This document shows positions 2,023 through 17,951 of a DNA stretch of 64,000 nucleotides, one piece after another (positions within the stretch are counted from its first letter, which is position 1; each line of letters opens with the position of its first letter). The notes below the pieces were generated by a model. It was given only the letters and a program-made list of their open reading frames with translations. It ran no database searches and had not been told where the DNA came from. The stretch spans positions 57,109-121,108 of the forward strand of contig LAKY01000032.1 in assembly GCA_000987045.1 (NCBI GenBank). Direction: 5' to 3'. This stretch comes from Clostridiales bacterium PH28_bin88 (GTDB lineage Bacteria > Bacillota > PH28-bin88). The position numbers were made by a program, and so were the translations under genes.

Positions 2023-2883
2023 TTATTTACCGAGTACCTCGTTCATGCTACCCGTCCGGTAGCCCTGCAGGTCCAGGGTGACGTAGGTATAGCCCAGCTC
2101 CTTCAGCTTTTGGGCTACCTGGTCCGCTGCCGCCAGGACTTTGGGGAAGTCGATCGCGGCGACCTCGATGCGGGCCAGGTCGCCGTGGTGCCGTACCCTC
2201 AACTGGCCAACACCTAAGGAACGCAGGTAATCCTCCGCCCGGCCGACCATGGTCAGTTTCTCCTGGGTGATCCGCTCCCCATAGGGGAAACGGGAGGACA
2301 GGCAGGCAAAGGAGGGTTTATCCCAGGTGGGAAGGCCCATTTCCCGGGAAAGCTGGCGGATGTCTTCCTTGGTCAGACCCGCTTCCTTGAGAGGGCTCCT
2401 GACCCCCAGTTCCCCCCCTGCCCGCATGCCTGGCCGGTGGTCGAACTGGTCGTCGTAGTTGGCCCCGTCCAACACGTAAGACAGGCCGTGCTCGCGGGCG
2501 ATGTCCAGGAGCTTGCCAAAGAGTTCGGTCTTGCAGAAGTAGCAGCGGTCGGGCGGGTTGGCGGCAAACTCTTCGTTAGCCAGTTCTTCCGTCCAGATGG
2601 TCAGGTGCCTTAAGCCCAACTGCTCGGCTAATGCCAGGGCCTCTTTCACCTCATGGTCCGGGTAAGTTTCCGAACAGGCGGTTACCGCCAGCGCCCGGTC
2701 CTCCAGGACGTCACGGGCCACCTTGGCCAGGAAGGTGCTGTCCACCCCTCCCGAATAGGCGATGACCGCCCCGCCGCAGCCGGCCAGTATTTCTCTTAGC
2801 TGGGACAGTTTTTGCTGAATGGTTTCCAAAAAGAACACACCTCCGCTTGGTTTTCGATGGACAATGATCAGCTTTCTTGGCAA
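2023..2883 (-). CDS. larE: LarE, pyridinium-3,5-biscarboxylate mononucleotide sulfurtransferase
   Basis: PP-loop SGGVDSTFLAKVA; CYFCK and PSFACLSSRFPYG motifs; next to larB/larC. A TTG at 2829 after GGAGG is an alternative start. Confidence 0.9.
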   Translation of the reverse strand: MPRKLIIVHRKPSGGVFFLETIQQKLSQLREILAGCGGAVIAYSGGVDSTFLAKVARDVLEDRALAVTACSETYPDHEVKEALALAEQLGLRHLTIWTEELANEEFAANPPDRCYFCKTELFGKLLDIAREHGLSYVLDGANYDDQFDHRPGMRAGGELGVRSPLKEAGLTKEDIRQLSREMGLPTWDKPSFACLSSRFPYGERITQEKLTMVGRAEDYLRSLGVGQLRVRHHGDLARIEVAAIDFPKVLAAADQVAQKLKELGYTYVTLDLQGYRTGSMNEVLGK

Positions 2884-3638
2884 CCTTTCAAGCCGCTGCG
2901 GATAATGGTATCAGCTAAAGCCGCGGCACCAAAACCGTTGTCAATATTTACAACCCCGATGCCTTTTGCACAACTGTTGAGCATGGTGAGCAACGCTGAC
3001 AGGCCGTTAAAGCTGGCCCCATAGCCTACACTGGTAGGCACCGCAATCACGGGTACGTCCACTAAACCGCCCACTACACTGGCCAGTGCCCCTTCCATTC
3101 CCGCCACGACAATGATTACCGCCGCGGAATTGAGCCGGTCATAATGGGCCAAAAGGCGGTGGATGCCGGCCACCCCCACATCGTAAACCCTTTCAACCTG
3201 GTGTCCCATTACTTCCGCCGTCACTACCGCCTCTTCCGCCACCGGAATGTCGGCAGTCCCCGCGGAGAGCACCAGGATTTTGCGGGAGGAGATTTTCACC
3301 TCTTCCGCGGCCATGCTGATAATTCTGGCCGTCTCATGGTATTTTGCCCGGGGATACAAAGGCTGGATGGCATTAAACATGTCTTGTCCCGCCCTGGTGG
3401 CCAGTATATTGCGGTTACGTTCGGCTAAACTCTGAAAGATCTTGACCACTTGCTCCACAGTCTTCCCCTGGCAGAATATGACTTCCGGGAAGCCGTTTCG
3501 TAACGCCCGGTGATGGTCTACTTTCGCGAATTCCAGGTCTTCATAAGGAAGCTTCTTCAGTTCTTCCAAGACCCGGGTCAGGCTTACCGTACCGGCCTTG
3601 TAGTCTTCCAACAATTTAACCAAGTTTTGCGTGTGCAT
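2868..3638 (-). CDS. larB: LarB, nickel pincer cofactor biosynthesis (NaAD carboxylase/hydrolase family)
   Basis: MHTQNLVKLLEDYKAGTVSLTRVLEELKKLPYEDLEFAKVDHHRALRNGFPEVIFCQGKT...; PurE-like C-terminal VLSAGTADIPVAEEAVVTAEVMGH. Confidence 0.93.
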   Translation of the reverse strand: MHTQNLVKLLEDYKAGTVSLTRVLEELKKLPYEDLEFAKVDHHRALRNGFPEVIFCQGKTVEQVVKIFQSLAERNRNILATRAGQDMFNAIQPLYPRAKYHETARIISMAAEEVKISSRKILVLSAGTADIPVAEEAVVTAEVMGHQVERVYDVGVAGIHRLLAHYDRLNSAAVIIVVAGMEGALASVVGGLVDVPVIAVPTSVGYGASFNGLSALLTMLNSCAKGIGVVNIDNGFGAAALADTIIRSGLKGCQES

Positions 3639-4386
3639 GATGCCCCTGTTGCACCTCCGTTTCCTGCGCCAACCGCGACCCCAGCAAGACCCTGAGCAGG
3701 TTGGGAATCTCCAAATCCCTCTCACCGGCGCCATACCCTACCTTTTCCACCAGCATGCCCGGTAACGGGCCAAAGCCCCGGCTGACAGTGCTGATGATGG
3801 CAGCGCCGGTGGGTGTTACCAGTTCTTTTTCGGGACCAAAAGCATAGATGGATACCCCGCATAACAGCTCCAGGGTGGCAGGCGCCGGGACCGGCATCAC
3901 TCCGTGCTGGCAGTTGACAAATCCCGAACCGACATTCAGTTTGGAACAATAAACTTCGTCCACCGCTAATATATCCTGACATATTGCAGACCCCACAATG
4001 TCGACAATCGCGTCCAGGCTGCCAACCTCGTGGAAGTGAACCCTTTCCAAGGTGGTTGCATGGATTTTCGCCTCGGCCGCAGCCAGGCGGTTAAAGATCC
4101 GCATACTCAAGTCCTTCACGTTTTGTTTCAAATCGCTCCGGTTGATTATTTCCTCAATGTCTTTCAGATGCCGGTGGGGATGCGGCCCTTCTTCCACCAG
4201 GACATTTACCTTGGTCCCGGCAATTCCGCATTTTTTTACTTTCTCCACCTGCAGTTCAAATCCCGGCAGGTTGAGTTTTGTCAACTCATGCCGTAATTCC
4301 GCCAGGTCTACACCCAGGTCCAGGCAGGCTCCCATGATCATATCCCCGCTAATACCCGAAAAGCAATCAAAATAAGCGATTTTCAC
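3616..4386 (-). CDS. larC: LarC1 domain protein (nickel insertion protein; no LarC2 domain attached)
   Basis: MKIAYFDCFSGISGDMIMGACLDLGVDL...FHEVGSLDAIVDIVG...TPTGAAII; stops at 256 aa, overlapping the larB start. Confidence 0.9.
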   Translation of the reverse strand: MKIAYFDCFSGISGDMIMGACLDLGVDLAELRHELTKLNLPGFELQVEKVKKCGIAGTKVNVLVEEGPHPHRHLKDIEEIINRSDLKQNVKDLSMRIFNRLAAAEAKIHATTLERVHFHEVGSLDAIVDIVGSAICQDILAVDEVYCSKLNVGSGFVNCQHGVMPVPAPATLELLCGVSIYAFGPEKELVTPTGAAIISTVSRGFGPLPGMLVEKVGYGAGERDLEIPNLLRVLLGSRLAQETEVQQGHHAHAKLG

Positions 4387-4626: not shown

Positions 4627-5736
4627 CTAGTGGATGATCAGGTCACGGGGGTAGCCAGTCAGGATCCGCGGGCCGTCCTGGGATACATGGATTACATCCG
4701 TAACCCTGGGGCCACCGGCCCCTTTTTTATAAACAGTGGGCAACAGGACATCCACTACCATGTCCTTCTCAATCGTTTCCTGGCGTCCCTTTCCAATGAT
4801 GGGATAGAATTCGGACTGCCTCAAGCCGACCCCGTATCCCACGAAATCCAAGTAGTGTTTTTCAAACCCAGCCTCAGCCACAACTTCCCGGGCCGCCGCG
4901 TCCACTTCCCACGCGTGGACGCCGGGTTTCAGGGCGGCGATGGCCCTGTCCTGCGCTTCCAACAGCAATTGGTAGGTTTTGGCCTGCTCCTCCGGGATGT
5001 TACCCATGGCCACCGTACGGCACATTTTTGAACAATAACCCTCACAAGTGGCACCCAGGTGGATCACCACCGCTTCCCCCGCCACCAGCTTTTTCTGGCT
5101 GGCGCAAGGGTGGGTCAGAAGCGCCCGCTCTCCCGAGGTCACCTGCATGCGGAAGGAAGACCCGCCTGAACCCGCCTTCAGCATCGCGTACTCGGCCTCC
5201 GCCAGCACCTCCAGTTCCGTGACTCCCGGTTTTACCGCCCGCACTGCTGCCTCCATACCTTTGCAGGCCATTTCGGAAGCCCGCCGGATCAGCTCGATCT
5301 CGTGGGGGGATTTTACCGACCGGAGGCGGTAGATCAGTTCGGTGGCGTTGACAAAGTCCTCCTCAGGGAAGGCCTTCCGCAAACCTTCGTACACTCCAAA
5401 TTCCACAAAATACTTTTCGAAGCCAATGCGGGGTTTCGTAAAACCGTACCCCTTCATTACCTCAATGGTCTTCGACACCAGGTTCTGGGCAGGGAAGAAG
5501 TAGCCCTTGACATGGGGAATAGCTGAGTTTTCCCGCAGGTATTCCACATCCAGCCAGAGGGTGACGGCGGTGGCTTCCCCTTTTCGCGGGATCACCAGCG
5601 CCATGCACTCCATCTGGGTACTGCCCGTAAAGTAGATCAGGTTTTCCCGCCCCACAATGAACAGCATATCAATGTTGGCTTCGTTGATAGCCACCTGGGC
5701 GCGCTTGATCCTCCCGGCAATCTCCTCTTTAAGCAA
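4627..5736 (-). CDS. Creatinase/M24 'pita-bread' fold protein without the usual M24 metal ligands
   Basis: N-terminal creatinase-like domain and M24 landmarks (VIHLGATCEGYCSKMCRT, GYGVGL, MVVDVLLPTVYKKGAGGPRVTD) with D/D/H/E/E ligand positions substituted. Confidence 0.8.
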   Translation of the reverse strand: MLKEEIAGRIKRAQVAINEANIDMLFIVGRENLIYFTGSTQMECMALVIPRKGEATAVTLWLDVEYLRENSAIPHVKGYFFPAQNLVSKTIEVMKGYGFTKPRIGFEKYFVEFGVYEGLRKAFPEEDFVNATELIYRLRSVKSPHEIELIRRASEMACKGMEAAVRAVKPGVTELEVLAEAEYAMLKAGSGGSSFRMQVTSGERALLTHPCASQKKLVAGEAVVIHLGATCEGYCSKMCRTVAMGNIPEEQAKTYQLLLEAQDRAIAALKPGVHAWEVDAAAREVVAEAGFEKHYLDFVGYGVGLRQSEFYPIIGKGRQETIEKDMVVDVLLPTVYKKGAGGPRVTDVIHVSQDGPRILTGYPRDLIIH

Positions 5737-5775: not shown

Positions 5776-6564
5776 TCAACCCGCGAACCGGACACTAGCG
5801 GTACCCAGCCGGTCGAAACAGGCCTCGAAGTAATCCCCGGCAACGGGCGCCACGGCTGCGGTGAAAGCCCCTGACAAGACAACCTCCCCGGCTTTCAGGG
5901 TAATCTCGAACTCGGCAAGCTTATTGGCCAGCCAGGCAACGGCGGCGGCGGGGTGCCCCAGCACGGCAGCGCCGGCAGCGGTGCTTAAGACCTCACCGTT
6001 CCTCTTGAAAACCAAACCGGTAAGGGTCAAGTCCAGATTATCTAATGGGGTGAGCCTCCCTCCCAGGACAAACCGGGCGCTGGAGGCATTGTCCGCTATG
6101 GTGTCCTGGATCTTGATCTTCCAATCCTTCACGCGGCTGTCCACAATCTCCAGGGAGGGGACCACCGCTTCCGTAGCCCGCAGCACGTCTGAGACCGAAA
6201 CCCCTGGGCCGGACAGGTCCTTTTTGAGCAGGAAGGCCACCTCAGCCTCCACCTTGGGCTGCATCAGGTCTCCCAGCCGGATTACCCCGCCGTCAACTAC
6301 TTCGATGTTGCTGAGCAGGTGGCCGTAGTCGGGTTCATATACCCCCAGCAGGTTTTGCATGGCCAGGCTGGTGAGCCCGATCTTTTTCCCTACCACCGGG
6401 TTTTTCTCATTAACTTTGGCTTTGATGACCTTAAGCTGCACCTGGTAGGCATCGTCGATGGTTATGTCTTTGAATTCGTCCGTAAGTGCCGTGATGGGCT
6501 CCCTAGTCCGCTCCGCCACCAGCAGGCGGCCCGCCAGTTGTTGGTATTTGTCTTCCCCTAACAC
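5776..6564 (-). CDS. 2-keto-4-pentenoate hydratase / oxalocrotonate decarboxylase family
   Basis: VVGKKIGLTSLAMQNLLGVYEPDYGHL, VEAEVAFLL, VVPSLEIVDSRVKDWKI; next to MhpE and MhpF homologs. Confidence 0.88.
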   Translation of the reverse strand: MLGEDKYQQLAGRLLVAERTREPITALTDEFKDITIDDAYQVQLKVIKAKVNEKNPVVGKKIGLTSLAMQNLLGVYEPDYGHLLSNIEVVDGGVIRLGDLMQPKVEAEVAFLLKKDLSGPGVSVSDVLRATEAVVPSLEIVDSRVKDWKIKIQDTIADNASSARFVLGGRLTPLDNLDLTLTGLVFKRNGEVLSTAAGAAVLGHPAAAVAWLANKLAEFEITLKAGEVVLSGAFTAAVAPVAGDYFEACFDRLGTASVRFAG

Positions 6565-6580: not shown

Positions 6581-7594
6581 CTAGGCTTTTGCCTTGGATA
6601 GCGCGAGAGCCACGTCCACGATCATGTCTTCCTGGCCACCAACCACCTTGCGGTGGCCCAGTTCTATCAGGATGTCCCGGGGATCCAATCCAAATTTCTC
6701 CGCCGACCGGAAGGTGTGCAGGAGGAAACTGGAGTATACCCCGGCATAGCCCAGGGAAAGTGCCGCCTTATCGATCACCTGCGGTCGCCGCATCAAAGGC
6801 CTTACCACATCCTCGGCCGCGTCCATGATCGCATACAAGTCCACGCCGGTTTCATATCCCAGCCTGTCCAGCACCGCTACCAGCACCTCGGTAGGCGTAT
6901 TCCCGGCGCCCGCTCCCAGGCCGGCCAGGCAGCCGTCAACCACACCGGCCCCTTCCTCGATAGCCGCCAGGGTGTTGCCGATGGCCAGGCCCAGGTTGTT
7001 GTGGGCGTGGAAACCTACCTCGACATTCAGGTTTTCTTTTAATAAGCCTACCCTTCTCCGGACGTCATCAGGCACCATCGCCCCCGCCGAGTCCACCACG
7101 TAGACCACGTCGGCGCCGTAGGATTCCATCAGTTTGGCTTGTTCCAGCACCTTTTCGGGTGGCGCCATATGGGAAAGCATGAGGAATGTGATAACCTCCA
7201 TGCCGATTTCCTTGGCCAACCCGATATGCTGGGCGGAAATGTCCGCTTCCGTGACATGGGTAGCGGGGCGCGCTACCCGGGCACCCTCCCGGTAAGCCAT
7301 CTCCAGGTCTTCCTTGACGCCCACACCCGGGAGCAGGAGCACTGCCAGCCTGGTATTCCTCGTCACTGCCTTGGCCGCCCGCAAGGCCTCCTGGTCGGTA
7401 AGTTTACTGAAACCGTAATTGATAGAAGAACCCCCCAGGCCGTCCCCGTGGGTGACTTCCAGGGTATCAATCATGGCCCGCTCCAGGGCCGCTGCCACGC
7501 GGGAGATATCTTCCGCACTATACTGGTGGGATACCGAGTGGCTGCCATCCCGGAGGGTAGTATCAATGATGCGGATCTTGCGTTTTTGAGTCAT
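6581..7594 (-). CDS. 4-hydroxy-2-oxovalerate aldolase
   Basis: [22 protein letters not shown]...[46 protein letters not shown]; MhpE/DmpG type. Confidence 0.94.
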
Positions 7595-8487
7595 GCCACG
7601 CTACCCCCTTCATTTCCCTGTCCGACCATTTTCCTGGCGATGGCCTCTCCCGCGGCCAGGGCAGCGGATGTCATGATGTCCAGGTTCCCGGCATACTTGG
7701 GCAGGAAATCTCCCGCCCCCTCTACCTCGATCATGATGGTCACCTTCTTGCCGTCGAACACCGGCGGGTACTTCAGCCGGTAGCCGGGAACGTATTTCTG
7801 TACGGTACTTACCATCGCCTCCACCGAGGCGGTGATGGCCTCGCGGTCCGGCTCGCTTTCAAGAATGGTGTAAATGGTATGCTGGTTGAGAATGGGGGGT
7901 TCCGCCGGGTTCAGGATGATGATGGACTTGGACTTTTTAGCCCCGCCGATCATGTGCACTCCCCTGGCGGTGGTAACGGTGAACTCGTCGATATTGGCCC
8001 GGGTCCCCGGGCCGGCGCTCTTGCTGGGGATGGTGGTGACCGTCTCGGCGTAAGCCACCTCAGCCACGCGGGAGACGGCAAACACCATGGGAATGGTGGC
8101 CTGACCCCCGCAGGTGACCATGTTGATGTTGGGTTCGCCGATGCTCTTCAGGTCGATGTCCACCGCCGGCACCACGTAAGGCCCCACCGCGGCGGGGGTA
8201 AGATCCACCGCCACCATCCCCGCCTCCTTGAGGAGGGGCGCGTGTTTCATATGGGCACCCGCGCTGGTGGCATCAAACACGATTTTAATACCGGAGTTTG
8301 CCAGAATGGGCCGGATACCCTCCGCGGAGGTGGGCACCCCCATCTCCCTGGCCCGGGCGATGCCGTCAGAATTGGGGTCGATCCCGGCAAACATTCCTAC
8401 TTCCAGCAGCTTGCTTCTGCGTTGAATCTTGATCAACAGGTCGGTACCGATATTGCCGGTGCCCAGTATTGCTGCTTTTACCGCCAA
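7591..8487 (-). CDS. Acetaldehyde dehydrogenase (acylating)
   Basis: [21 protein letters not shown]...[47 protein letters not shown]; MhpF/DmpF type. Confidence 0.94.
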
Positions 8488-8542: not shown

Positions 8543-10330
8543 TCAGCGGCTGTGATGGCACATATAATGATGGTCGAAATGGCAGGATTCATGGGCCTGA
8601 TTCTTGGCCTTTAATACCTCTCTCAAAGCACCGGCAATCCTTTCAGCCAGCACGGTTTTTCCTGGTTGGTGCGGTAGTTCGCGGAAGAGCACTTCCAAGG
8701 CCACCTTCACTTCGTCATTGGGCCCGGGTAAGGCGATGATTGTGGTCTCGCCTACCACCCCAACAGCAATCCTTACCCCTGCCTTTTGGTGCCTTCCCGA
8801 CCCTTTCTGGTACTTAACAATCCAAGAGGTAGCAGCCATGGGATCCACCCGCAGCAACCCTTCTACCGTTCGGTCCTTATCCTCAGCCCCCACTCCTCCG
8901 GTCGTAATTACCAGGCCATAACCTTCTTCCACCGCCCTCAAAAGGTGCATGGCAATACTGTCTTCGTCATCATCCATGATGCCGCCTGTCGCTACGTTGT
9001 ACCCTCTCCGTCTGAACTCTTCAGCAATCATGGGAGAGTTGGTATCGCGGATCATCCCTCTCTTGACCTCGAACCCGGAAGGGAATACCTTGACACGGCG
9101 CGCCACCCGCGCCCTGATTTCCTCCACCATCTGCTCCGAGCGCCGGAAGGTCTCCTCCACTTCTTCCGGTGGCAGAGCAATCAGCCCGAGAATACCCTCA
9201 GAATGGATCCTGGCGTCCTCCCCCAGGCGAACACCAGGCAGGTGTGCCAACCGGTCGAGAATTTCCCCTTCCTTCCCGGCGATGTCCCGCGCCTGGATGG
9301 TACGCCGCAGGATATCCAAAGTGATGTGGTTATCCCGCACGTCTACCACCAGTACTTCTTTTCTTTCCAGGTTCAACGTTTCCGCCACCACCGACGCGAT
9401 ATCGGTTAAATTGGCACCGTTCATGAAGATATCTTCAACCCACAGTTCGGTCTTTTCCAACAGGTTTAGCTCCAAGAGAGTATTTTTCTCTTCCCCCGCC
9501 CTTTGCACCTCTACCACGTCCAGCCGGAAGTCCAGCAGGGGAGCATCCACGATCTGTGTTCCGATGTCCAGGATATCGATGTCTTTTTCCGCCAGACCGG
9601 GGATGTCTTCAATTTTAACGCCTCCGGCAAAGGCGATCTTTACCTTGTCACGGATCCCGGCAGCCGTCAGGTAAGCCTCAACGGTCTCGGCATCGGCTGT
9701 TTGACCCGTATCCACCATCAGGATATCCGCCCCTCCCAGGACGGCCTCCTCGGCTTCCGCCGCGATCCCGCCGGTCTCCCCCTTTAGTTGAATGACCTTG
9801 AGCATGTCCTGGAACCCACTGACGGCTTTCAGGGTCTCTCTAATCCCGCCGAACATCCTTACATAGTTTTTGTCCAGATAAATAAACGGTTGATTGACGA
9901 TGCGGAAATTCGCCCCCCCGGTAGTGATCGCTTCCCGCACCAAGAACTTGAGGTCTGGGGGCATCTTCTTCCACGCCCCGGAAACAATGGCTACTTTCCC
10001 ACGGGCATGGCTTACCGCTTTATGCGCCGCGGTGGCAATTCCCGAGGACTTGGCAATGAGGCCCACCAGCACCTCTTCGGCCTGGGCTACCTGCTTGGGG
10101 TTTCCCCTGACCAGCAAGACCTTTTCGCCTTCCGCAATCCACATACCATCTTCGGCCCAGTAGAGGACAGTCAAACCCAGTTCCACCGCCTTTTCCCGAG
10201 CCCTGTCGATACCGGCTAACACGCCGTCTCTTTCGGCTGTAATGGCTGCCGTCGTTGTTGCATCCATAACTCCGGCAAAGATTTGGTCGCGTATGTCGCT
10301 GTGAGGCCGGACGGTTTGACATTCAGCCAT
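8543..10330 (-). CDS. Fusion protein: QPRTase (NadC/ModD)-like domain + COG1058/MoCF (CinA-N-like) domain
   Basis: N-terminal half: LIAKSSGIATAAHKAV, GGANFRIVNQPFIYLDKNYV, GGADILMVDTG, IAFAGGVKIEDIP. C-terminal half: IRDTNSPMIAEEFRRRGYNVATGGIMDDDEDSI...LVITTGGVGAEDKDRTVEGL...ALPGPNDEV. Confidence 0.82.
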   Translation of the reverse strand: MAECQTVRPHSDIRDQIFAGVMDATTTAAITAERDGVLAGIDRAREKAVELGLTVLYWAEDGMWIAEGEKVLLVRGNPKQVAQAEEVLVGLIAKSSGIATAAHKAVSHARGKVAIVSGAWKKMPPDLKFLVREAITTGGANFRIVNQPFIYLDKNYVRMFGGIRETLKAVSGFQDMLKVIQLKGETGGIAAEAEEAVLGGADILMVDTGQTADAETVEAYLTAAGIRDKVKIAFAGGVKIEDIPGLAEKDIDILDIGTQIVDAPLLDFRLDVVEVQRAGEEKNTLLELNLLEKTELWVEDIFMNGANLTDIASVVAETLNLERKEVLVVDVRDNHITLDILRRTIQARDIAGKEGEILDRLAHLPGVRLGEDARIHSEGILGLIALPPEEVEETFRRSEQMVEEIRARVARRVKVFPSGFEVKRGMIRDTNSPMIAEEFRRRGYNVATGGIMDDDEDSIAMHLLRAVEEGYGLVITTGGVGAEDKDRTVEGLLRVDPMAATSWIVKYQKGSGRHQKAGVRIAVGVVGETTIIALPGPNDEVKVALEVLFRELPHQPGKTVLAERIAGALREVLKAKNQAHESCHFDHHYMCHHSR

Positions 10331-10408: not shown

Positions 10409-11665
10409 TTAAGATTTGAAGTCATCAGGCTCAACAACCATGGATATAATCACACCGCCCAGCAGCGCCCAGAACGGGGCACTGATCTTTAGAACCACAA
10501 TACCCGACATGGCGATTACCAGGGCTGCGAAGGCGCCGATCTTGAATTTCTTGGTGGAGAAGGCCATATCGAAGGAACTCACCAGCACCCCGATCATGGC
10601 TAAACCGGCCAGCACACTGATAAGATCCTTGGGCAAGGCCTTGACAAACGGCACCGCCGCGCTGGCGAACAGGCCAAAGGCTCCGAAGGTAATCCCGTTA
10701 ACAATGGAGGCCACATACCGCCCTTCTTTGTTGGGGCCGGCCTCATCAGACGAGCAGATGGCGGTCATGGGGCCGGCGATGTTGGCGTTGTGGCCGCCGA
10801 AGAAAGCGGTGACCATCCCGCCTATACCGCTGATAATTGTCATCATGTTGATGGGTGGTTTATACCCCTGGGACATCAGCACCCCGATAGCCTGGGCGTT
10901 TTCCGCTCCCATCACCAGGGCAGCCAGGGGAATGGCAATGGAGAATAAGGCGCCAACGCTGAATTCCGGCTTGAAGATCTGGGGAGCGATAAACTTGACG
11001 TCCAAGCTGGAGAACGAGAAACCTCCGAAGGCCGCCGCAGCCACCACGCCGACGATCAGGGCGCCCAGTACGGGAGAAACCTTCTTGGTCAGCCGCTGGG
11101 AAACCAGGTAGCCCACTAGGGCCAACCCGGCAATCAACGGGGCTTTCTGCGTGGAGGTAACGATCCCGGTGCCGAACCGGATCATGGCTCCCGCGATCAT
11201 CGCCATCACGATAGGCAGCGGCAGCCAGCGCATCACTTTTCCGATGAGACCGGAGAGTCCCAGAACTAACACAATAAGACCGGCAACAAAGTACGCGCCT
11301 ACCGCCTGGTTGATGTTAAAGAAGGTGAGAGCCGAAGCCAGCATCACTGCTCCCGGGATGGACCAGGCTCCGTTGATGGGCTGCTTGTAATACGATGCCA
11401 GCAGAACTCCCAGCAACCCACCAAAGAAGTATACCGCAAACAGCCAGGAGATGGTCTGAGCCTCGGTCAACTTTCCTGCGGCCGCGGAATTCATGATGAT
11501 CAGGGCTGGGCCTGTGCACCCAAAGATCGTCGCCACGATGCCCGCGGTAATGGTGTTGTTGTTCAGGTGCTTACCTAGATCCCCAAAGCCCGAAGAAAAC
11601 CCTGGTCCCTTTTCAAACACACCGTTGGGCTTGGCAGTGGTTACATGTTCTTCTTTGACTGCCAT
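10409..11665 (-). CDS. BenE-family (benzoate/H+ symporter-like) permease
   Basis: About 12 hydrophobic segments; PINGAWSIPGAVMLASAL, FFGGHNANIAGPMTAICSSDEAGP, typical of the BenE family; RBS GGGAGG before ATG at 11665. Confidence 0.78.
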   Translation of the reverse strand: MAVKEEHVTTAKPNGVFEKGPGFSSGFGDLGKHLNNNTITAGIVATIFGCTGPALIIMNSAAAGKLTEAQTISWLFAVYFFGGLLGVLLASYYKQPINGAWSIPGAVMLASALTFFNINQAVGAYFVAGLIVLVLGLSGLIGKVMRWLPLPIVMAMIAGAMIRFGTGIVTSTQKAPLIAGLALVGYLVSQRLTKKVSPVLGALIVGVVAAAAFGGFSFSSLDVKFIAPQIFKPEFSVGALFSIAIPLAALVMGAENAQAIGVLMSQGYKPPINMMTIISGIGGMVTAFFGGHNANIAGPMTAICSSDEAGPNKEGRYVASIVNGITFGAFGLFASAAVPFVKALPKDLISVLAGLAMIGVLVSSFDMAFSTKKFKIGAFAALVIAMSGIVVLKISAPFWALLGGVIISMVVEPDDFKS

Positions 11666-11788
11666 TTGATTTTTCCTCCCTTTCAGCCGAAAAGATGATA
11701 AATTATTCTTTATGCAAACCCCGCAGCTTGTCGCAGTTGGGGAGGGAACCCCCTCCATATGCGGCCTTGGGAGGGGGTGGAACTGGTC

Positions 11789-13237
11789 TTAACTGGCCGC
11801 AAAGGACTTTAGGATGGTTGGATCAACGCCCCGTTGGCGCAGCCACTTGGGCAGCAACTCTTCGTCCACCCGGCGGCTTACTTCGGGCGCCTTTTTCAAC
11901 AGCACCTCCGCCAGCGATTCGCTCACGTTGATCCCGCCCATGGCTCCGTCAAAGATGATCACCTTGTCCGTACCCGTCACCTGATAGGCGAATTTCATGG
12001 CAGCTTCCGTGGTCTCCGCCACCACCGCGTGCTTCATGTAGGTGAGGTTCTGCGGGTCGCGGTTCATCAAGTCCGCCTGTGGTTGCCCCACCACCACGGT
12101 GGGAATGTGCTCCGCGAAGAAGGCACTGGGATAGCCGCCCCAGGCGTAGCTGTGAACGCACATCTTGATGGCGGGGTTTACCGGCGGAATGTCTTCCAGC
12201 AGGGGGCGGCCGTTCTTGCCGTAGAAGGCCTCTGTATACCAGGTATAGGGAGCCAGGGGTTTATCCAGGTCATACAGGTCGGTATTGGCCCCAGCGAAGT
12301 TGGCGTAAATCACACCGGCGGCAAATACGTACGGCACCGGGCACGGAAAATCCAGGACAGCAATGCACTCGTCAATTTCCCCGAACATGGTCATCGCCTT
12401 GCCGTAGTACTGGCACCCGATGAAGGTCACCCGGTCGTTCAGCGCGTAGAGGTCGTTATCCACGTCCACACCGACGATCCCGTTGGGGGCAGTACTTAAA
12501 AACGCCGCAAAGGCAAACTTGCTCTGCACAAAGGGCGAATCGAAGATCGCCCTGGCGGTAAAGTTGGCTGCCCGGGGACCAAGGTTTTGGTGGTAGGTGG
12601 AACGAGTCTCGATACGGGCGTAGGACATGCCAAAGGGCTTCACCGCTTTGTCCACCTGGCGGTGGAAGTGGACCTCCCGCACGTCACTGTGGTGGGCGTG
12701 GATGATCCAGTCCGCGTCATAGATCTTCTTGATCCCGTAAAGGGTGCCAATCTCCGTTTCGATGGGAATACCCTGGTCCACCGGCGCCACGCCGATGGCC
12801 TTCCCCTTGAAGTGGACGTCCAGGCCGTAGCGCTTGATATATTCCTCGGTCTCCCGGAACCTGAGTCCCACACCCGCCCGCAGGCGAATATTGGAGGTAC
12901 CCGTCCGTGCTTCCACCACGTCCCGTACTGTCTTCAGCATTTCGGCGTACGGCTCGCCACCCAGCAGGGTAAAGCCATGGTGTGAGGCCAGGATGTTAAC
13001 GGAGTCCTCCGGCTTGATCATGCTCATGTCCACTTTCGCCAGCGCCTCTTCGGCCGCCTTTCTGACAGCAGCGATGCCGCCCTCTCCTGGGAAAATGACG
13101 TCAGGGGCGTCAGGGAACAATTCTTTGATTAACAGCGAGGTCATCCCCGGCAGTTCCGCGACGCGGGTCTTAACCAGCGAAGGGTCGATCCCGTACTGGG
13201 ATGCCTTCGGTGCTATGGGCATGATTGGCTTTCGCAT
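11789..13237 (-). CDS. Distant LarA-superfamily protein (putative nickel-pincer-nucleotide enzyme)
   Basis: RAGVGLRFRETEEYIKRYG aligns with LarA ATGFHRPSTHEELVNKYG; REVHFHRQVDKAVKPFGMSYARIETRSTYH aligns ungapped with LarA [29 protein letters not shown], keeping His, Lys (+10) and His (+26). Confidence 0.75.
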   Translation of the reverse strand: MRKPIMPIAPKASQYGIDPSLVKTRVAELPGMTSLLIKELFPDAPDVIFPGEGGIAAVRKAAEEALAKVDMSMIKPEDSVNILASHHGFTLLGGEPYAEMLKTVRDVVEARTGTSNIRLRAGVGLRFRETEEYIKRYGLDVHFKGKAIGVAPVDQGIPIETEIGTLYGIKKIYDADWIIHAHHSDVREVHFHRQVDKAVKPFGMSYARIETRSTYHQNLGPRAANFTARAIFDSPFVQSKFAFAAFLSTAPNGIVGVDVDNDLYALNDRVTFIGCQYYGKAMTMFGEIDECIAVLDFPCPVPYVFAAGVIYANFAGANTDLYDLDKPLAPYTWYTEAFYGKNGRPLLEDIPPVNPAIKMCVHSYAWGGYPSAFFAEHIPTVVVGQPQADLMNRDPQNLTYMKHAVVAETTEAAMKFAYQVTGTDKVIIFDGAMGGINVSESLAEVLLKKAPEVSRRVDEELLPKWLRQRGVDPTILKSFAAS

Positions 13238-13860
13238 CAGTCACCCCTCCTGTCCGCAGGCTTGGCTGCCACTACCTCGTCCAGCAGCTTGATATCCTCG
13301 TCAAAGTAGAAACCGCGCTTATTGTATTTGGCCTTGATTTCCTCGGGTATCTCCCACACGGTGGGTGTGCGTCCATACCACTGCCAACCGTTCTTGGGCG
13401 GTTGGGGTTTGATACCAGCCGCTTCTAACAGCCGCAGCATGGGTTGGATGCACTCTACCTTGCAACCGGTCCTGACGCCGGTAACCAGAGAAATGTCTTC
13501 AGGGCTCTTGGCGCCCAGTAAAATGGCTGCCGCCACCTCGTCGGCGCGGGTAGCCGTACAGTAACATACCAATTGTTCGGGATTTAACTTGGCCTTCAAA
13601 CACAAATTGATAATTTCCTCGTAAGGCACCTTCTCCACATCGGTTTTGACGGTAATGGGATTTTCCCTCTTAACCATGGTGAGGGCGTACTCCGGGCATC
13701 GCTGTTCACAGTTGGCACATCCCCGGCACCTTTCTTCATCCACCACCGAAACCCTGTCCACCACCTTGATGGCCAACACCGGGCAGACCCTTTCACAGGT
13801 CTTGCACCCCGTACACTTTTCAGTATCTACGCGGGGTGCTAGAGTAACTACTTTCACCAA
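13237..13860 (-). CDS. Two-[4Fe-4S] ferredoxin-like protein with BFD-like [2Fe-2S] domain
   Basis: CTGCKTCERVCP and CRGCANCEQRCP, then CYCTATRADEVAAAILLGAKSPEDISLVTGVRTGCKVEC. Confidence 0.82.
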   Translation of the reverse strand: MVKVVTLAPRVDTEKCTGCKTCERVCPVLAIKVVDRVSVVDEERCRGCANCEQRCPEYALTMVKRENPITVKTDVEKVPYEEIINLCLKAKLNPEQLVCYCTATRADEVAAAILLGAKSPEDISLVTGVRTGCKVECIQPMLRLLEAAGIKPQPPKNGWQWYGRTPTVWEIPEEIKAKYNKRGFYFDEDIKLLDEVVAAKPADRRGD

Positions 13861-14021: not shown

Positions 14022-14816
14022 TTACTTGACGTATCCCAGCTTCTCCGATAGTTCTTCCGCCGCTTTGGTAACACTTATAATAATTCCGCCAATCTTCTCC
14101 CTCCCCATCCGGATACTGGGGCCGGCCACACTCATGGCGGCTACCACATTGCCGGTATGGTTCCGGATGGGAGCCGCCACACAGGTGAGCCCCTCGGTAA
14201 TCTCCTGGTCATCAATGGCATATCCCCGCTGGCGCACCTCCCGGAGGTGTTCTTTCAACGCAGCCGGCTCAGTAATGGTATTACCGGTGAATCTAGCCAG
14301 CCCTTTCTCTCGGATCACCGCTTCCAGTTGCTCTTCCGGCAGGAAAGCCAACAGCGTCTTGCCTACCCCGGTGCAGTGGCAGGGCAGCCGCTTACCTACC
14401 TGGGAAACCATGCGCATCGACTGATGGCTGTCCCGCTTGTCGATGTAGACAGCTTCTCCCTGATCCATGATCACCAGGTGGACGGTCTCGCCGTGCTCCT
14501 CGACCAGGCGCTGTAGAAAAGGCCCGGCGACTACTTTTAGGTCCATTCCGTCCTGCACCAGATTCCCCAACTCAAATAATTTTAAGCCCAGCTTGTATTT
14601 GCCGGTCTCGGGATTCTGCTCCAGGTACCTGCGGTATTCAAGGGTAGTCAAGATACCGTGAACGGTACTCTTGTGCAGCTCCAGCAGTTTGCTGATCTCG
14701 GTAACCCCCAGTTCATGACGGCCGCTTGTAAAACACTCAAGGACATTTATCGCCCTGTCGATGGACTGGATAGTGTTTGCTGTCTTCTGAGAGGTAGTCA
14801 ATTGATGTCTTGGCAT
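14022..14816 (-). CDS. IclR-family transcriptional regulator
   Basis: MPRHQLTTSQ...SIDRAINVLECFTSGRHELGVTEISKLLELHKSTVHGILTTLEYRRYLEQ; GAGGG RBS before ATG at 14816 (ORF track extends to 14888). Confidence 0.92.
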   Translation of the reverse strand: MPRHQLTTSQKTANTIQSIDRAINVLECFTSGRHELGVTEISKLLELHKSTVHGILTTLEYRRYLEQNPETGKYKLGLKLFELGNLVQDGMDLKVVAGPFLQRLVEEHGETVHLVIMDQGEAVYIDKRDSHQSMRMVSQVGKRLPCHCTGVGKTLLAFLPEEQLEAVIREKGLARFTGNTITEPAALKEHLREVRQRGYAIDDQEITEGLTCVAAPIRNHTGNVVAAMSVAGPSIRMGREKIGGIIISVTKAAEELSEKLGYVK

Positions 14817-14972
14817 ACCCTCGGCCCCTTTGTCCGGCATTATCGTACATTGTACCGTATTATAGTAAATACATATTTCTGCAATCATCGGATAATTCCT
14901 GCTTAGTCAAAAAAATTTTTAGCCCAAGAGTGAAAAAGAGTGACCCTCAACGGTTCACTCTTTTAGCAAGTG

Positions 14973-15989
14973 TTATGTCCCACTATCCTTGTGTGTCTTT
15001 ATTTCCTCCAGTAACGGCGGCAAGATCTTCTTGAGATCCGCCACTACCCCGTAATCGGACACGTGGAAGATGGGCGCCTGGGAGTCGTTATTCACGCTGA
15101 TCACCACGCCGCTGTCCTTCATTCCTACGACATGGTGGGCGGCTCCGGAGATCCCGAACCCGATGTAGAGGCGAGGTCGCACCGTTTTGCCGCTGGTGCC
15201 GATCATGGTGTGCTCACCCTCGGTCCACCCCTCGTCCAGGGCGGGCCTGGTACATCCAACAGCGCCGCCCAACTCGCTGGCAAGTTCCTCCAGGAGCTGC
15301 CAGGTCTCCGCGCTGCCGACACCCCAGCCGCCGGCCACCACTACATCGGCCTGCTCCAGGGGCAGGCCCGGCGGGGGCTCTTGCACCACCCGGAGGGCCT
15401 TCAAGGGCGAACTAAAACCGTCCAGCACCGCCGCTGTTTCTTTGACCACCTCACCAATGCGGGTGGCGTCCTTTGCCGGCTTGGCGAAGAGCCCTGGTTT
15501 GACGCTGGCCATCTGGGGACGGTGGTTGGGGCACAGGATGTCTCCCAGCACCCGCCCGCCGAAGGCCGGAACCACCTGAACAAATTCCCCCTGTTCGTTG
15601 ATATGCAGGTCCACACAGTGGGCCGCGAGGCCGGTCCCCAATTTAGCCGCTACGGTGGCGGATAATTCGCTGCCGCAGTATGACGCACTGAACAGCACGA
15701 TCTCGGGCAACTCTCTCCGGATCAGATCCTCCAACACCGCGGCATAGGTATCGTTCTGGTAGAGCGTAAGGCGCGGGTGGTCAATCACCAGCACCCGGTC
15801 CGCCCCGTAGGGAATAAGTTCTTCCGCCAGCGCCCCGATACCGCTGCCCATGACCACGGATACTACCCCCGCACCTCCTCCCTGCGCAGCCAGTTCCCCG
15901 GCCTTTCCCAGGAGTTCAAAGGAGGCTTCCGCCAGCTTGCCCTCGATTTGCTCGGCTACCACCCATACTGCACCCTTACTTTTTTGCAA
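14973..15989 (-). CDS. etfA: Electron transfer flavoprotein alpha subunit
   Basis: RPALDEGWTEGEHTMIGTSGKTVRPRLYIGFGISGAAHHVVGMKDSGVVISVNNDSQAPIFHVSDYGVVADL. Confidence 0.95.
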   Translation of the reverse strand: MQKSKGAVWVVAEQIEGKLAEASFELLGKAGELAAQGGGAGVVSVVMGSGIGALAEELIPYGADRVLVIDHPRLTLYQNDTYAAVLEDLIRRELPEIVLFSASYCGSELSATVAAKLGTGLAAHCVDLHINEQGEFVQVVPAFGGRVLGDILCPNHRPQMASVKPGLFAKPAKDATRIGEVVKETAAVLDGFSSPLKALRVVQEPPPGLPLEQADVVVAGGWGVGSAETWQLLEELASELGGAVGCTRPALDEGWTEGEHTMIGTSGKTVRPRLYIGFGISGAAHHVVGMKDSGVVISVNNDSQAPIFHVSDYGVVADLKKILPPLLEEIKTHKDSGT

Positions 15990-16006
15990 ACCCCTCGCCC
16001 CCTTTC

Positions 16007-16801
16007 CTAGCTCAGCACACCGGCAACACGCAGGATACCCATGATTTTTTGGGCCACGTCGGCAGGCTCACCCTCCAGCATCTCGGCCTTGCGGCCTATC
16101 TGAGGAACATGCAGATCTCCCGGTTGAGTCGGGGAGCCGGCAAGCCCGGTGGTACCCGGGTCGAGTTCCAGGTCCTCAAGCCCCCAGACCGTAAAGGGCT
16201 TGTTCTGGGCCATCACAACCCCCATCAGCGAAGTGTAACGCGGGGTATTGATGTCCCTGGCGACGCCCAATACCATCGGCAGGCGTCCCTCGAACTCCAT
16301 ATAGCCGTTCTCAATCTTGGTCTTCAACATCAGGGCATCCCCTTCCACAGTCAAAGAAAGGAGGTTGGTCAGGTGGGAAATACCCAGCATCTCGCCCAAC
16401 TGGGAGGGTACGTGGGTGGTCCCGCCGTCGGCGCTTTCCGACCCGGTAAAAACCAGGTCGAAACTCCCAATCTTCTTCAACCCAGCTGCCAGCACCCTGA
16501 CAGTCGCCAGGGTATCGGCGCCGGCAAAGGCACGGTCGCTTAAAAGATAAACCGCGTCGGCTCCCATGGCCAGCCCCTCTTTGAGGACCTCCCTGGTGTC
16601 CGGCGGAGCCATACTGACCAGCACCACGCTGCCTCCATGGGTTTCTTTTAACCGCAAGGCCGCCTCAATGGCGTTTTTGTCCACGGGGTTAATTACCATG
16701 GGGATCCCTTTACGGACAAGCAGTTTCGTAGCGGGATCGATGGTAATCTTGTCATAGGCGCTGGGATCAGGGACCGGCTTGACACATACGGCAATATTCA
16801 T
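16007..16801 (-). CDS. etfB: Electron transfer flavoprotein beta subunit
   Basis: MNIAVCVKPVPDPSAYDKITIDPATKLLVRKGIPMVINPVDKNAIEAALRLKE...FTGSESADGGTTHVPSQLGEML. Confidence 0.95.
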   Translation of the reverse strand: MNIAVCVKPVPDPSAYDKITIDPATKLLVRKGIPMVINPVDKNAIEAALRLKETHGGSVVLVSMAPPDTREVLKEGLAMGADAVYLLSDRAFAGADTLATVRVLAAGLKKIGSFDLVFTGSESADGGTTHVPSQLGEMLGISHLTNLLSLTVEGDALMLKTKIENGYMEFEGRLPMVLGVARDINTPRYTSLMGVVMAQNKPFTVWGLEDLELDPGTTGLAGSPTQPGDLHVPQIGRKAEMLEGEPADVAQKIMGILRVAGVLS

Positions 16802-16811
16802 GATTGTCCCC

Positions 16812-17951
16812 CTACTTGTTCAACTCGTTGCCCGCCACGATAACCTGCATGATGTGGGAGGTACCGCCTGACGGAATGGTTGCCACCGCGTCTCGCAGGT
16901 AGCGGCCGACCGGGTAGTCGGAAACGACACCATAACCGCCCATCAGGTCGGTAGTCCGCTTGGCCGCGTTGACTGCCGCCTCGGTGGTAAAGAATTTAGC
17001 CATGGCCACCTCGGGCCCGCACGGTATCCCGGCATCCTTCATCCCCATGGCGTTGTAGGTCATTAACCGGCCGGCCTCGTACTCGGTACGGTTCTGGGCG
17101 ATAATGAACTGGATGTTCGGCAGCTTGGCCAGGGGTTTACCATAGATGATCCGCTCCTTGGCAAACTTCACGGAATCCTCGAGGCAAGCACGCAAAATGC
17201 CCACGCTGATGGCCGCCATACCGGCCCGTCCCACTTCACCGATGGTACCCAGCGCGATCTTGGTCCCGTCTCCGACCTTACCTACAAGATTTTCCTCAGG
17301 CACCTTAACGTTATTTAGGATTACCTCACCCATGATCGAACCCCGGAGGCCGGTCTTTTTCTCCTTACGTCCAGGACCGTGGCCAGGCGTGTTTTCATCG
17401 ATTAGAATGGCGGAAATCCGGGGACGACCCTTTTCGTCCTCTCCGGTCCTGACGGTTACAATGTCGATATCGGCGCAGTGGGAGTTGGTGATGAAGCACT
17501 TGCGGCCGTTCAAGATCCACTGGCCGTCCACCAGTTCGCCGGTAGACTTTTGACCCGCAAAGTCGGACCCACCCCCCGGTTCGGTCACGGACAGGCCTCC
17601 AATGGCCCCGGAACACAGCCTGGGAAGGTATTTCTTCTTCTGCTCTTCGTTACCCCATGTCAGAAGGGCGTAAACGGCCAGGTGGTGAGTCATCAGGGAC
17701 ATGGCGAAACCGGCCGAGTAGCGGGCGATCTCTTCCAGGATGATGGCCCGCTCGGTGTGGCCCAGGCCGGCGCCGCCGTACTGGGTGGGCACAAATACGC
17801 CGTTGAAACCTAGCTGGGCCATCTTGCGCAACAACTCAACAGGAAAAGTGTCCTCCTCATCGATCCTGTCGGCAATGGGCGCGATTTCCTTCTCCACAAA
17901 GTCCCGCACAACTTTCCTCAACATTTCCTGCTGTTCGGTGAACTTTAACAT
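16812..17951 (-). CDS. Acyl-CoA dehydrogenase
   Basis: GGLSVTEPGGGSDFAGQKSTGELVDGQWILNGRKCFITNSHCADI...QFIIAQNRTEYEAGRLMTYNAM...LMGGYGVVSDYPVGRYLRDA. Confidence 0.95.
   Translation of the reverse strand: MLKFTEQQEMLRKVVRDFVEKEIAPIADRIDEEDTFPVELLRKMAQLGFNGVFVPTQYGGAGLGHTERAIILEEIARYSAGFAMSLMTHHLAVYALLTWGNEEQKKKYLPRLCSGAIGGLSVTEPGGGSDFAGQKSTGELVDGQWILNGRKCFITNSHCADIDIVTVRTGEDEKGRPRISAILIDENTPGHGPGRKEKKTGLRGSIMGEVILNNVKVPEENLVGKVGDGTKIALGTIGEVGRAGMAAISVGILRACLEDSVKFAKERIIYGKPLAKLPNIQFIIAQNRTEYEAGRLMTYNAMGMKDAGIPCGPEVAMAKFFTTEAAVNAAKRTTDLMGGYGVVSDYPVGRYLRDAVATIPSGGTSHIMQVIVAGNELNK

Follow-up and report, generated by a model that had tools for sequence, protein, structure and literature searches.

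MogA and MoeA perform adenylylation and metal loading for molybdopterin, and proteins of the CinA, gephyrin-E, MoaB and Mog type form or cleave the anhydride in an adenylylated cofactor or place a metal there. DmpE, DmpG and DmpF provide a complete route from 2-hydroxypenta-2,4-dienoate, and the product of HmfF is 2-furoate. The furandicarboxylate decarboxylase HmfF of Pelotomaculum has been crystallised (PMC8988006, PMC6644310), and PDB entry 6H6V is PtHmfF of Pelotomaculum (PMC8988006). The LarA family members in the literature surveyed are hydroxy-acid racemases or epimerases, and their cofactor needs only LarB, LarE and LarC. The catalytic residues His108 and His174 of LarA are named in PMC11770544.

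We analysed a stretch of 64,000 nucleotides from Clostridiales bacterium PH28_bin88 (the window), in which genes for LarB, LarE and LarC lie beside a catabolic gene set. The genes between 4627 and 13860 are separated by gaps of at most 78 bases. The features are as follows:

2023–2883, reverse strand: LarE (TIGR00268, 348 bits vs a cut-off of 150)
2868–3734, reverse strand: LarB (NF033503, 306 bits vs a cut-off of 175)
3616–4386, reverse strand: LarC (TIGR00299, above cut-off), without the C-terminal part (profile positions 1–237 of 375)
4627–5736, reverse strand: M24/creatinase-fold protein, found at 13 of 30 related loci
5776–6564, reverse strand: 2-oxopent-4-enoate hydratase-like protein of the DmpE family, below the equivalog cut-off
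6581–7594, reverse strand: 4-hydroxy-2-oxovalerate aldolase (DmpG)
7591–8487, reverse strand: acylating acetaldehyde dehydrogenase (DmpF)
8543–10330, reverse strand: fusion protein of 595 aa (QPRTase-like, unrecognised domain, MoCF, His/Cys tail)
10409–11758, reverse strand: aromatic acid transporter of the BenE family
11789–13237, reverse strand: LarA-like protein of 482 aa, a putative NPN enzyme, 72–86% identical across the phylum
13237–13860, reverse strand: ferredoxin-type protein with two 4Fe-4S motifs and a BFD-like [2Fe-2S] part
14022–14888, reverse strand: IclR-family regulator, found at 19 of 30 related loci

The stop codon of the ferredoxin gene overlaps the start of the LarA-like gene, meaning that the two are translationally coupled. 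Most of the 29 genomes described below, and the locus L023, share a conserved set of IclR, the two halves of the fusion, the DmpE-like hydratase, DmpF, DmpG, ferredoxin and the LarA-like protein, to which BenE and the M24 protein are often added. The gene order is conserved across many families. At least one of larB, larE and larC was present at 11 of the 30 related loci and also in the window. No described anaerobic furoate pathway or operon of this kind was found in the open-access papers searched. We read the fusion as a factor dedicated to the maturation of the LarA-like NPN enzyme, which would be linked to ferredoxin and act in anaerobic furan acid (2-furoate) catabolism; we put the probability of this reading at about 0.5.

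Some further observations concern the neighbourhood. The LarC of the window lacks its C-terminal third, a full-length LarC is encoded on another contig of the same genome (G000:C55), and similarly short copies occur in several genomes. Upstream of the IclR gene, the same strand carries genes for EtfA, EtfB and an acyl-CoA dehydrogenase (14973–17951); they were set aside because they are not conserved with the operon at related loci. At two loci (L041 and L045), three-gene sets of the xanthine dehydrogenase type directly adjoin the operon, near the LarA-like gene.

The ORF of the fusion starts with ATG and contains no internal stops. Pfam assigned QRPTase_N to residues 20–96, QRPTase_C to residues 98–271 and MoCF_biosynth to residues 418–552, all above the gathering cut-offs. 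The QPRTase-like half is called FUS_N and the MoCF half FUS_C in the following, both in the fusion and for separate-gene homologues. The parts are:

9491–10330, reverse strand: QPRTase-like half, residues 1–280, a gene of its own in relatives
9947–9982, reverse strand: SGAWKKMPPDLK, residues 117–128, in place of DTRKTTPGLR of NadC
9902–9910, reverse strand: NFR, residues 141–143, in place of NHR of NadC, with R143 kept
9107–9490, reverse strand: domain of an unrecognised family, residues 281–408, ~130 aa, conserved in all relatives, no Pfam match
8663–9103, reverse strand: MoCF domain, residues ~410–556, CinA/gephyrin-E/MoaB fold
8546–8596, reverse strand: His/Cys-rich C-terminal tail HESCHFDHHYMCHHSR, a possible metal-binding tail

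A preliminary description had presented the gene as a fusion of a QPRTase-like and a COG1058/MoCF-like protein. The ORF and both folds were confirmed, while the middle domain and the His/Cys tail had been overlooked. In relatives from the same phylum, FUS_N and FUS_C are separate and mostly adjacent genes, and the fusion in the window is the exception. At L037 and L044, the MoCF gene is located several kilobases from FUS_N in the same cluster. A second clear fusion was not seen in the loci examined, where single long matches resolved into two distinct ORFs per genome, and a scan of the genome collection with the fusion as query gave one relative only. As the reading frame in the window is unbroken across both halves, it can be taken as a Rosetta stone, indicating that the two partners work together. 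The source assembly consists of 99 contigs and has an estimated contamination of 6%; despite this, a chimera at the locus is unlikely because the operon is conserved elsewhere. The fusion halves are 36–57% identical between genomes in which the LarA-like proteins are 72–86% identical, which indicates a far slower evolution of the latter.

FUS_N scored above the cut-offs of the two domain families (PF02749 46 bits, PF01729 65 bits), and the fusion scored below the equivalog cut-off of NadC (TIGR00078, 115 vs 198 bits) and the cut-off of ModD (TIGR01334, 37 vs 178.9 bits). We compared 24 FUS_N homologues with two NadC controls, which carry the catalytic residues R105, R139, H161, K172 and E201 (in what we take to be the numbering of M. 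tuberculosis QPRTase). The R105 position was acidic (E/D) in 24/24 homologues. R139 was replaced conservatively by K in 23/24, with an inserted W, and K140 was K in 24/24. The H161 position was variable and mostly hydrophobic across the 24, and R162 was kept in 23/24. K172 was changed to D, E201 to Q and N223 to T in 24/24 each; D222 (24/24) and the GG phosphate loop were kept. In the fusion itself, the acidic residues E86 and D153 occupy the R105 and K172 positions, and K121 and K122 of SGAWKKMPPDLK correspond to R139 and K140, both held as lysines.

The two motif changes reported in the preliminary description are correct with respect to the genome's own NadC (L003), an ordinary enzyme encoded next to a NadB-like gene, which has DTRKT and NHR. 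Its doubt about quinolinate chemistry is likewise supported by the replaced catalytic residues and by the presence of that NadC. The once basic base pocket of FUS_N is now partly acidic, and this speaks against quinolinate or another dicarboxylate as substrate; the phosphate side is preserved. QPRTase chemistry therefore appears unlikely for the fusion. The uniformity of the replacements argues for a new constrained function and not for decay.

Residues 281–408, with neither a Pfam nor a clear PDB match, may constitute a new domain family; the Foldseek matches of the FUS_C model mostly span only the MoCF part. The MoCF domain (PF00994, 76 bits in the fusion) carries the invariant motif TTGG(V/I)GAEDKD. 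With the model of this half (pLDDT 86), Foldseek matched the CinA N-domain, gephyrin E and MoaB/Mog, the best match being the CinA N-domain 3kbq (E 5e-9). The profile search with the MoCF half also found the MoCF-like domain of FAD synthase. Subfamily cut-offs were missed: the fusion reached 20 of 243 bits for cinA_nterm, and for the TIGR00177 domain (cut-off 85 bits), the fusion scored 73 bits and the L037 protein 63 bits. The last 18 residues contain a mean of 3.5 His and Cys in 24 homologues and 8 in the protein of the window; for comparison, most other families of the operon have 0–0.5 and LarC has 1.0. Such a composition is typical of the tails of nickel chaperones.

An ordinary NadC or CinA was rejected on the basis of family cut-offs and residues. 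The same data bear on the idea that the pair belongs to ordinary NAD metabolism, as an alternative NadC together with a CinA-type pyridine-nucleotide hydrolase. Among the NCBIfam families, TIGR00078 indeed scores best for the N-half, and 3kbq is the top fold match of the C-half, but the scores remain far below both cut-offs, R105, H161, K172 and E201 are lost and the genome has a normal NadC, so that we regard this as very improbable. Loss of catalytic residues with a retained nucleotide site would also be expected if nucleotide-binding enzymes had become regulators or sensors through which the operon responds to the state of the cofactor or of NAD. We consider this very improbable as well: Pfam found no DNA-binding or signalling domain, the operon already has an IclR regulator at 19 of the 30 loci, and the invariant MoCF motif suggests catalysis.

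In a sample of 399 genomes of the same phylum, 29 contained the FUS_N/FUS_C pair or one half of it and 26 the LarA-like gene, and all 26 LarA-like genomes were pair-positive (hypergeometric probability 8e-38 before allowing for relatedness). As the genomes are related, the probabilities quoted here are too small. The three pair-positive genomes without a LarA-like gene were G050 (copy broken, on a contig of 4.3 kb), G379 (a contig end) and G091 (a divergent FUS_N). The proposed tie between the fusion and the LarA-like gene thus holds in 26 of 26 genomes, and contig edges or fragments account for two of the three exceptions. Wide occurrence of the fusion or pair without lar or LarA-like genes, which would have spoken against this tie, was not seen in the 399 genomes.

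LarC was found in 90 of 150 genomes (60%), the FUS pair in 7% of the phylum sample. Ordinary NPN synthesis can hence proceed without the pair, which points to a role specific to the LarA-like enzyme or its pathway. Of the 26 LarA-like genomes, 25 had LarC, against the background of 60%; in G308, LarC was not detected although the operon is otherwise complete. In G091 (locus L052), a FUS_N with 36% identity lies between XdhC/YqeB genes and larB/larE, and the LarA-like gene, the MoCF partner and the Dmp genes are absent from the fetched locus. This arrangement supports a cofactor role for FUS_N and is also compatible with a molybdenum role. The region from 7826 to 12418 of L052 suggests possible cross-talk between selenium/molybdenum hydroxylase genes and nickel-pincer genes.

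The pair might accordingly serve a molybdenum or tungsten cofactor enzyme of the AOR or xanthine dehydrogenase type encoded nearby. The family of the MoCF domain, the presence of AOR at 7/30 and of a Mo-hydroxylase at 3/30 related loci and the position of FUS_N beside YqeB and XdhC, which are molybdenum-hydroxylase maturation genes, would all fit. We nevertheless consider it improbable because most operon loci have no Mo/W enzyme in the ~20 kb fetched, whereas the LarA-like and ferredoxin genes are present at every locus uncut by a contig end, except L052, and larB/larE are found at L052 too.

Both halves could also have a catabolic function, with the furan or a ring-opened intermediate as substrate (e.g. 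in the opening of dihydrofuroate) instead of a cofactor. They are always in an operon with the LarA-like gene, DmpE and DmpF, usually directly before the Dmp genes, and the pair is missing from most LarC-positive genomes, as expected of a pathway enzyme. However, nucleotides or pterin phosphates are the usual ligands of both folds, the phosphate-site residues are kept, the His/Cys tail fits a metal factor, and at L052, FUS_N stands beside larB/larE without Dmp genes. On balance, a catabolic role seems rather unlikely. The sequence data are compatible with maturation, cofactor editing and catabolism alike.

For the LarA-like protein, neither Pfam and NCBIfam nor the PDB sequences gave a significant match, and PF09861 (Lar_N) did not match it even at E 10. 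Consequently, the name 'LarA-like' needed separate support. A Foldseek search with a mediocre AF2 model (pLDDT 70) found nothing, and a plasmid search with the protein gave no match. With hhalign, the comparison with a profile built on 43 LarA-superfamily members of these genomes gave an E value of 0.0017 at a probability of only 15%, and the alignment was collinear over 117 columns (58–182). The score with this deeper profile was 32.6, compared with a maximum of 25.3 among 60 column-shuffle nulls; with a shallower LarA profile, the protein did not rise above the shuffles. Directly after the aligned stretch follows one more feature:

12590–12670, reverse strand: invariant H190-x9-K200-x15-H216 of the LarA-like protein

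The H-x9-K-x15-H spacing was present in 21/21 LarA-like and 23/23 canonical LarA proteins, in 3/535 other ORFs and in 22/20000 column shuffles. In LarA of L. plantarum, its positions are His174, Lys184 and His200. The GxHR stretch of LarA with H108 was paired by hhalign with GLRFR (126–128), where the alignment is weak. This catalytic His may be replaced, in which case racemisation would not be expected. Given the weak similarity to the deeper profile and the shared spacing, the protein is likely to be remote kin of LarA. The nearly complete genomes G132 and G087 contain LarC and the LarA-like protein without a PF09861 LarA.

The genome of the window (G000) has eight PF09861 matches, mostly divergent LarA-superfamily proteins, on contigs C43, C54, C66 and C88. 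In the divergent LarA-superfamily set, the spacing is H-x12-K-x15-H in 16/20. A lone LarA-like N-terminus fragment of 63 aa (G098:C2:803114-803302, L118) lies beside a LarC gene (801958-803097) and is possibly a remnant of a second LarA-like copy or a small protein.

The substrate is suggested by a UbiD linked to the operon in relatives, whose best PDB match was 6h6v (E 6e-206), well ahead of a different protein in second place (E 4e-70). An HmfF-type UbiD (at least 63% identity to the L049 copy) occurred in 6 of the 399 genomes, and all six were operon-positive (chance 4e-8 before allowing for relatedness). All six genes are within about 10 kb of operon genes, and in G162, the distance to the LarA-like gene is 0.4 kb. 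In the genome of the window, no HmfF was found at E 1e-120. A close HmfF is missing from 23 of the 29 pair-positive genomes, this one included, and the substrate could therefore differ. Two-electron reduction and ring opening of 2-furoate yield 2-hydroxypenta-2,4-dienoate (C5H4O3 + 2H = C5H6O3), and there is no oxygenase among the conserved operon genes. AOR and Fe-ADH genes, present at 6–7 of the 30 related loci, fit the oxidation of furfural and HMF; alternatively, they could act on acetaldehyde. A pyridine carboxylate, raised as an option in the preliminary description, is not favoured, as the catabolic context (DmpE/F/G, ferredoxin, BenE and the linked HmfF) points to a furan acid instead.

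Under the maturation reading, 2-furoate would be imported by BenE or, in some genomes, made from furfural (Fe-ADH/AOR) or from furandicarboxylate (HmfF). The enzyme two genes upstream of the fusion would be a very divergent member of the LarA superfamily, probably with the Ni-pincer nucleotide on its K200 and supplied with electrons by the coupled ferredoxin. A two-electron reduction and ring opening would turn 2-furoate into 2-hydroxypenta-2,4-dienoate, which DmpE/G/F would convert to pyruvate and acetyl-CoA. The ligand to be bound or edited by FUS_N would probably be a non-dicarboxylate pyridinium mononucleotide, e.g. the Ni-loaded pincer, as the phosphoribosyl site is kept and the acidic E86 and D153 replace R105 and K172. 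The MoCF half would probably make or break an adenylyl bond on this mononucleotide or drive metal loading, by analogy with MogA and MoeA, and the His/Cys tail may hold nickel. Of all this, the linkage, the domain make-up, the residue changes and the tail are observed, and the ligand, the adenylation, the nickel and the reduction of furoate are inferred. In a further-reaching version, the pair would make a modified NPN (e.g. a Ni-pincer adenine dinucleotide) that drives the ferredoxin-dependent reductive dearomatisation and opening of 2-furoate in anaerobes without CoA activation, so that the pincer nucleotide would serve for more than racemisation; this is speculative, and we hold it to be doubtful.

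If the maturation reading is true, a ferredoxin-coupled LarA relative in a catabolic operon would be a first net-redox use of the Ni-pincer cofactor, and with a QPRTase-like/MoCF pair dedicated to it, the handling of this cofactor would gain at least one new step. The operon would then be a candidate answer to the question of how strict anaerobes open furan rings, which is relevant to side products of lignocellulose (furfural, HMF and furandicarboxylate). The gene set is compact and testable.

Compared with NadC (PF02749/PF01729), FUS_N has the same fold over its whole length and keeps K140, R162, D222 and the GG phosphate loop, but it lacks the N-terminal EDLGxGD stretch and is changed at R105, R139, H161, K172, E201 and N223. 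With the CinA N-domain/COG1058, FAD synthase MPTb, MogA/MoaB and MoeA/gephyrin-E (PF00994), the fusion shares the MoCF fold, GGxG and the acidic motif positions. It differs from them in the additional unrecognised N-terminal domain, the His/Cys tail and scores below all subfamily cut-offs, and from CinA also in having no deamidase domain. The hydratase, aldolase and acylating aldehyde dehydrogenase (DmpE, DmpG and DmpF) resemble the lower part of aerobic meta-cleavage pathways; in place of a ring-cleaving dioxygenase, which is absent from the conserved operon genes, the ferredoxin/LarA-like pair stands upstream. The linked UbiD genes resemble HmfF of P. thermopropionicum in their best match to 6h6v, but they are present at only a minority of the operons. 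The LarA/NPN system is matched by larB, larE and larC and by the H-x9-K-x15-H spacing of the neighbour, whereas a ferredoxin partner, the apparent lack of a second catalytic His and two extra factors set the present system apart.
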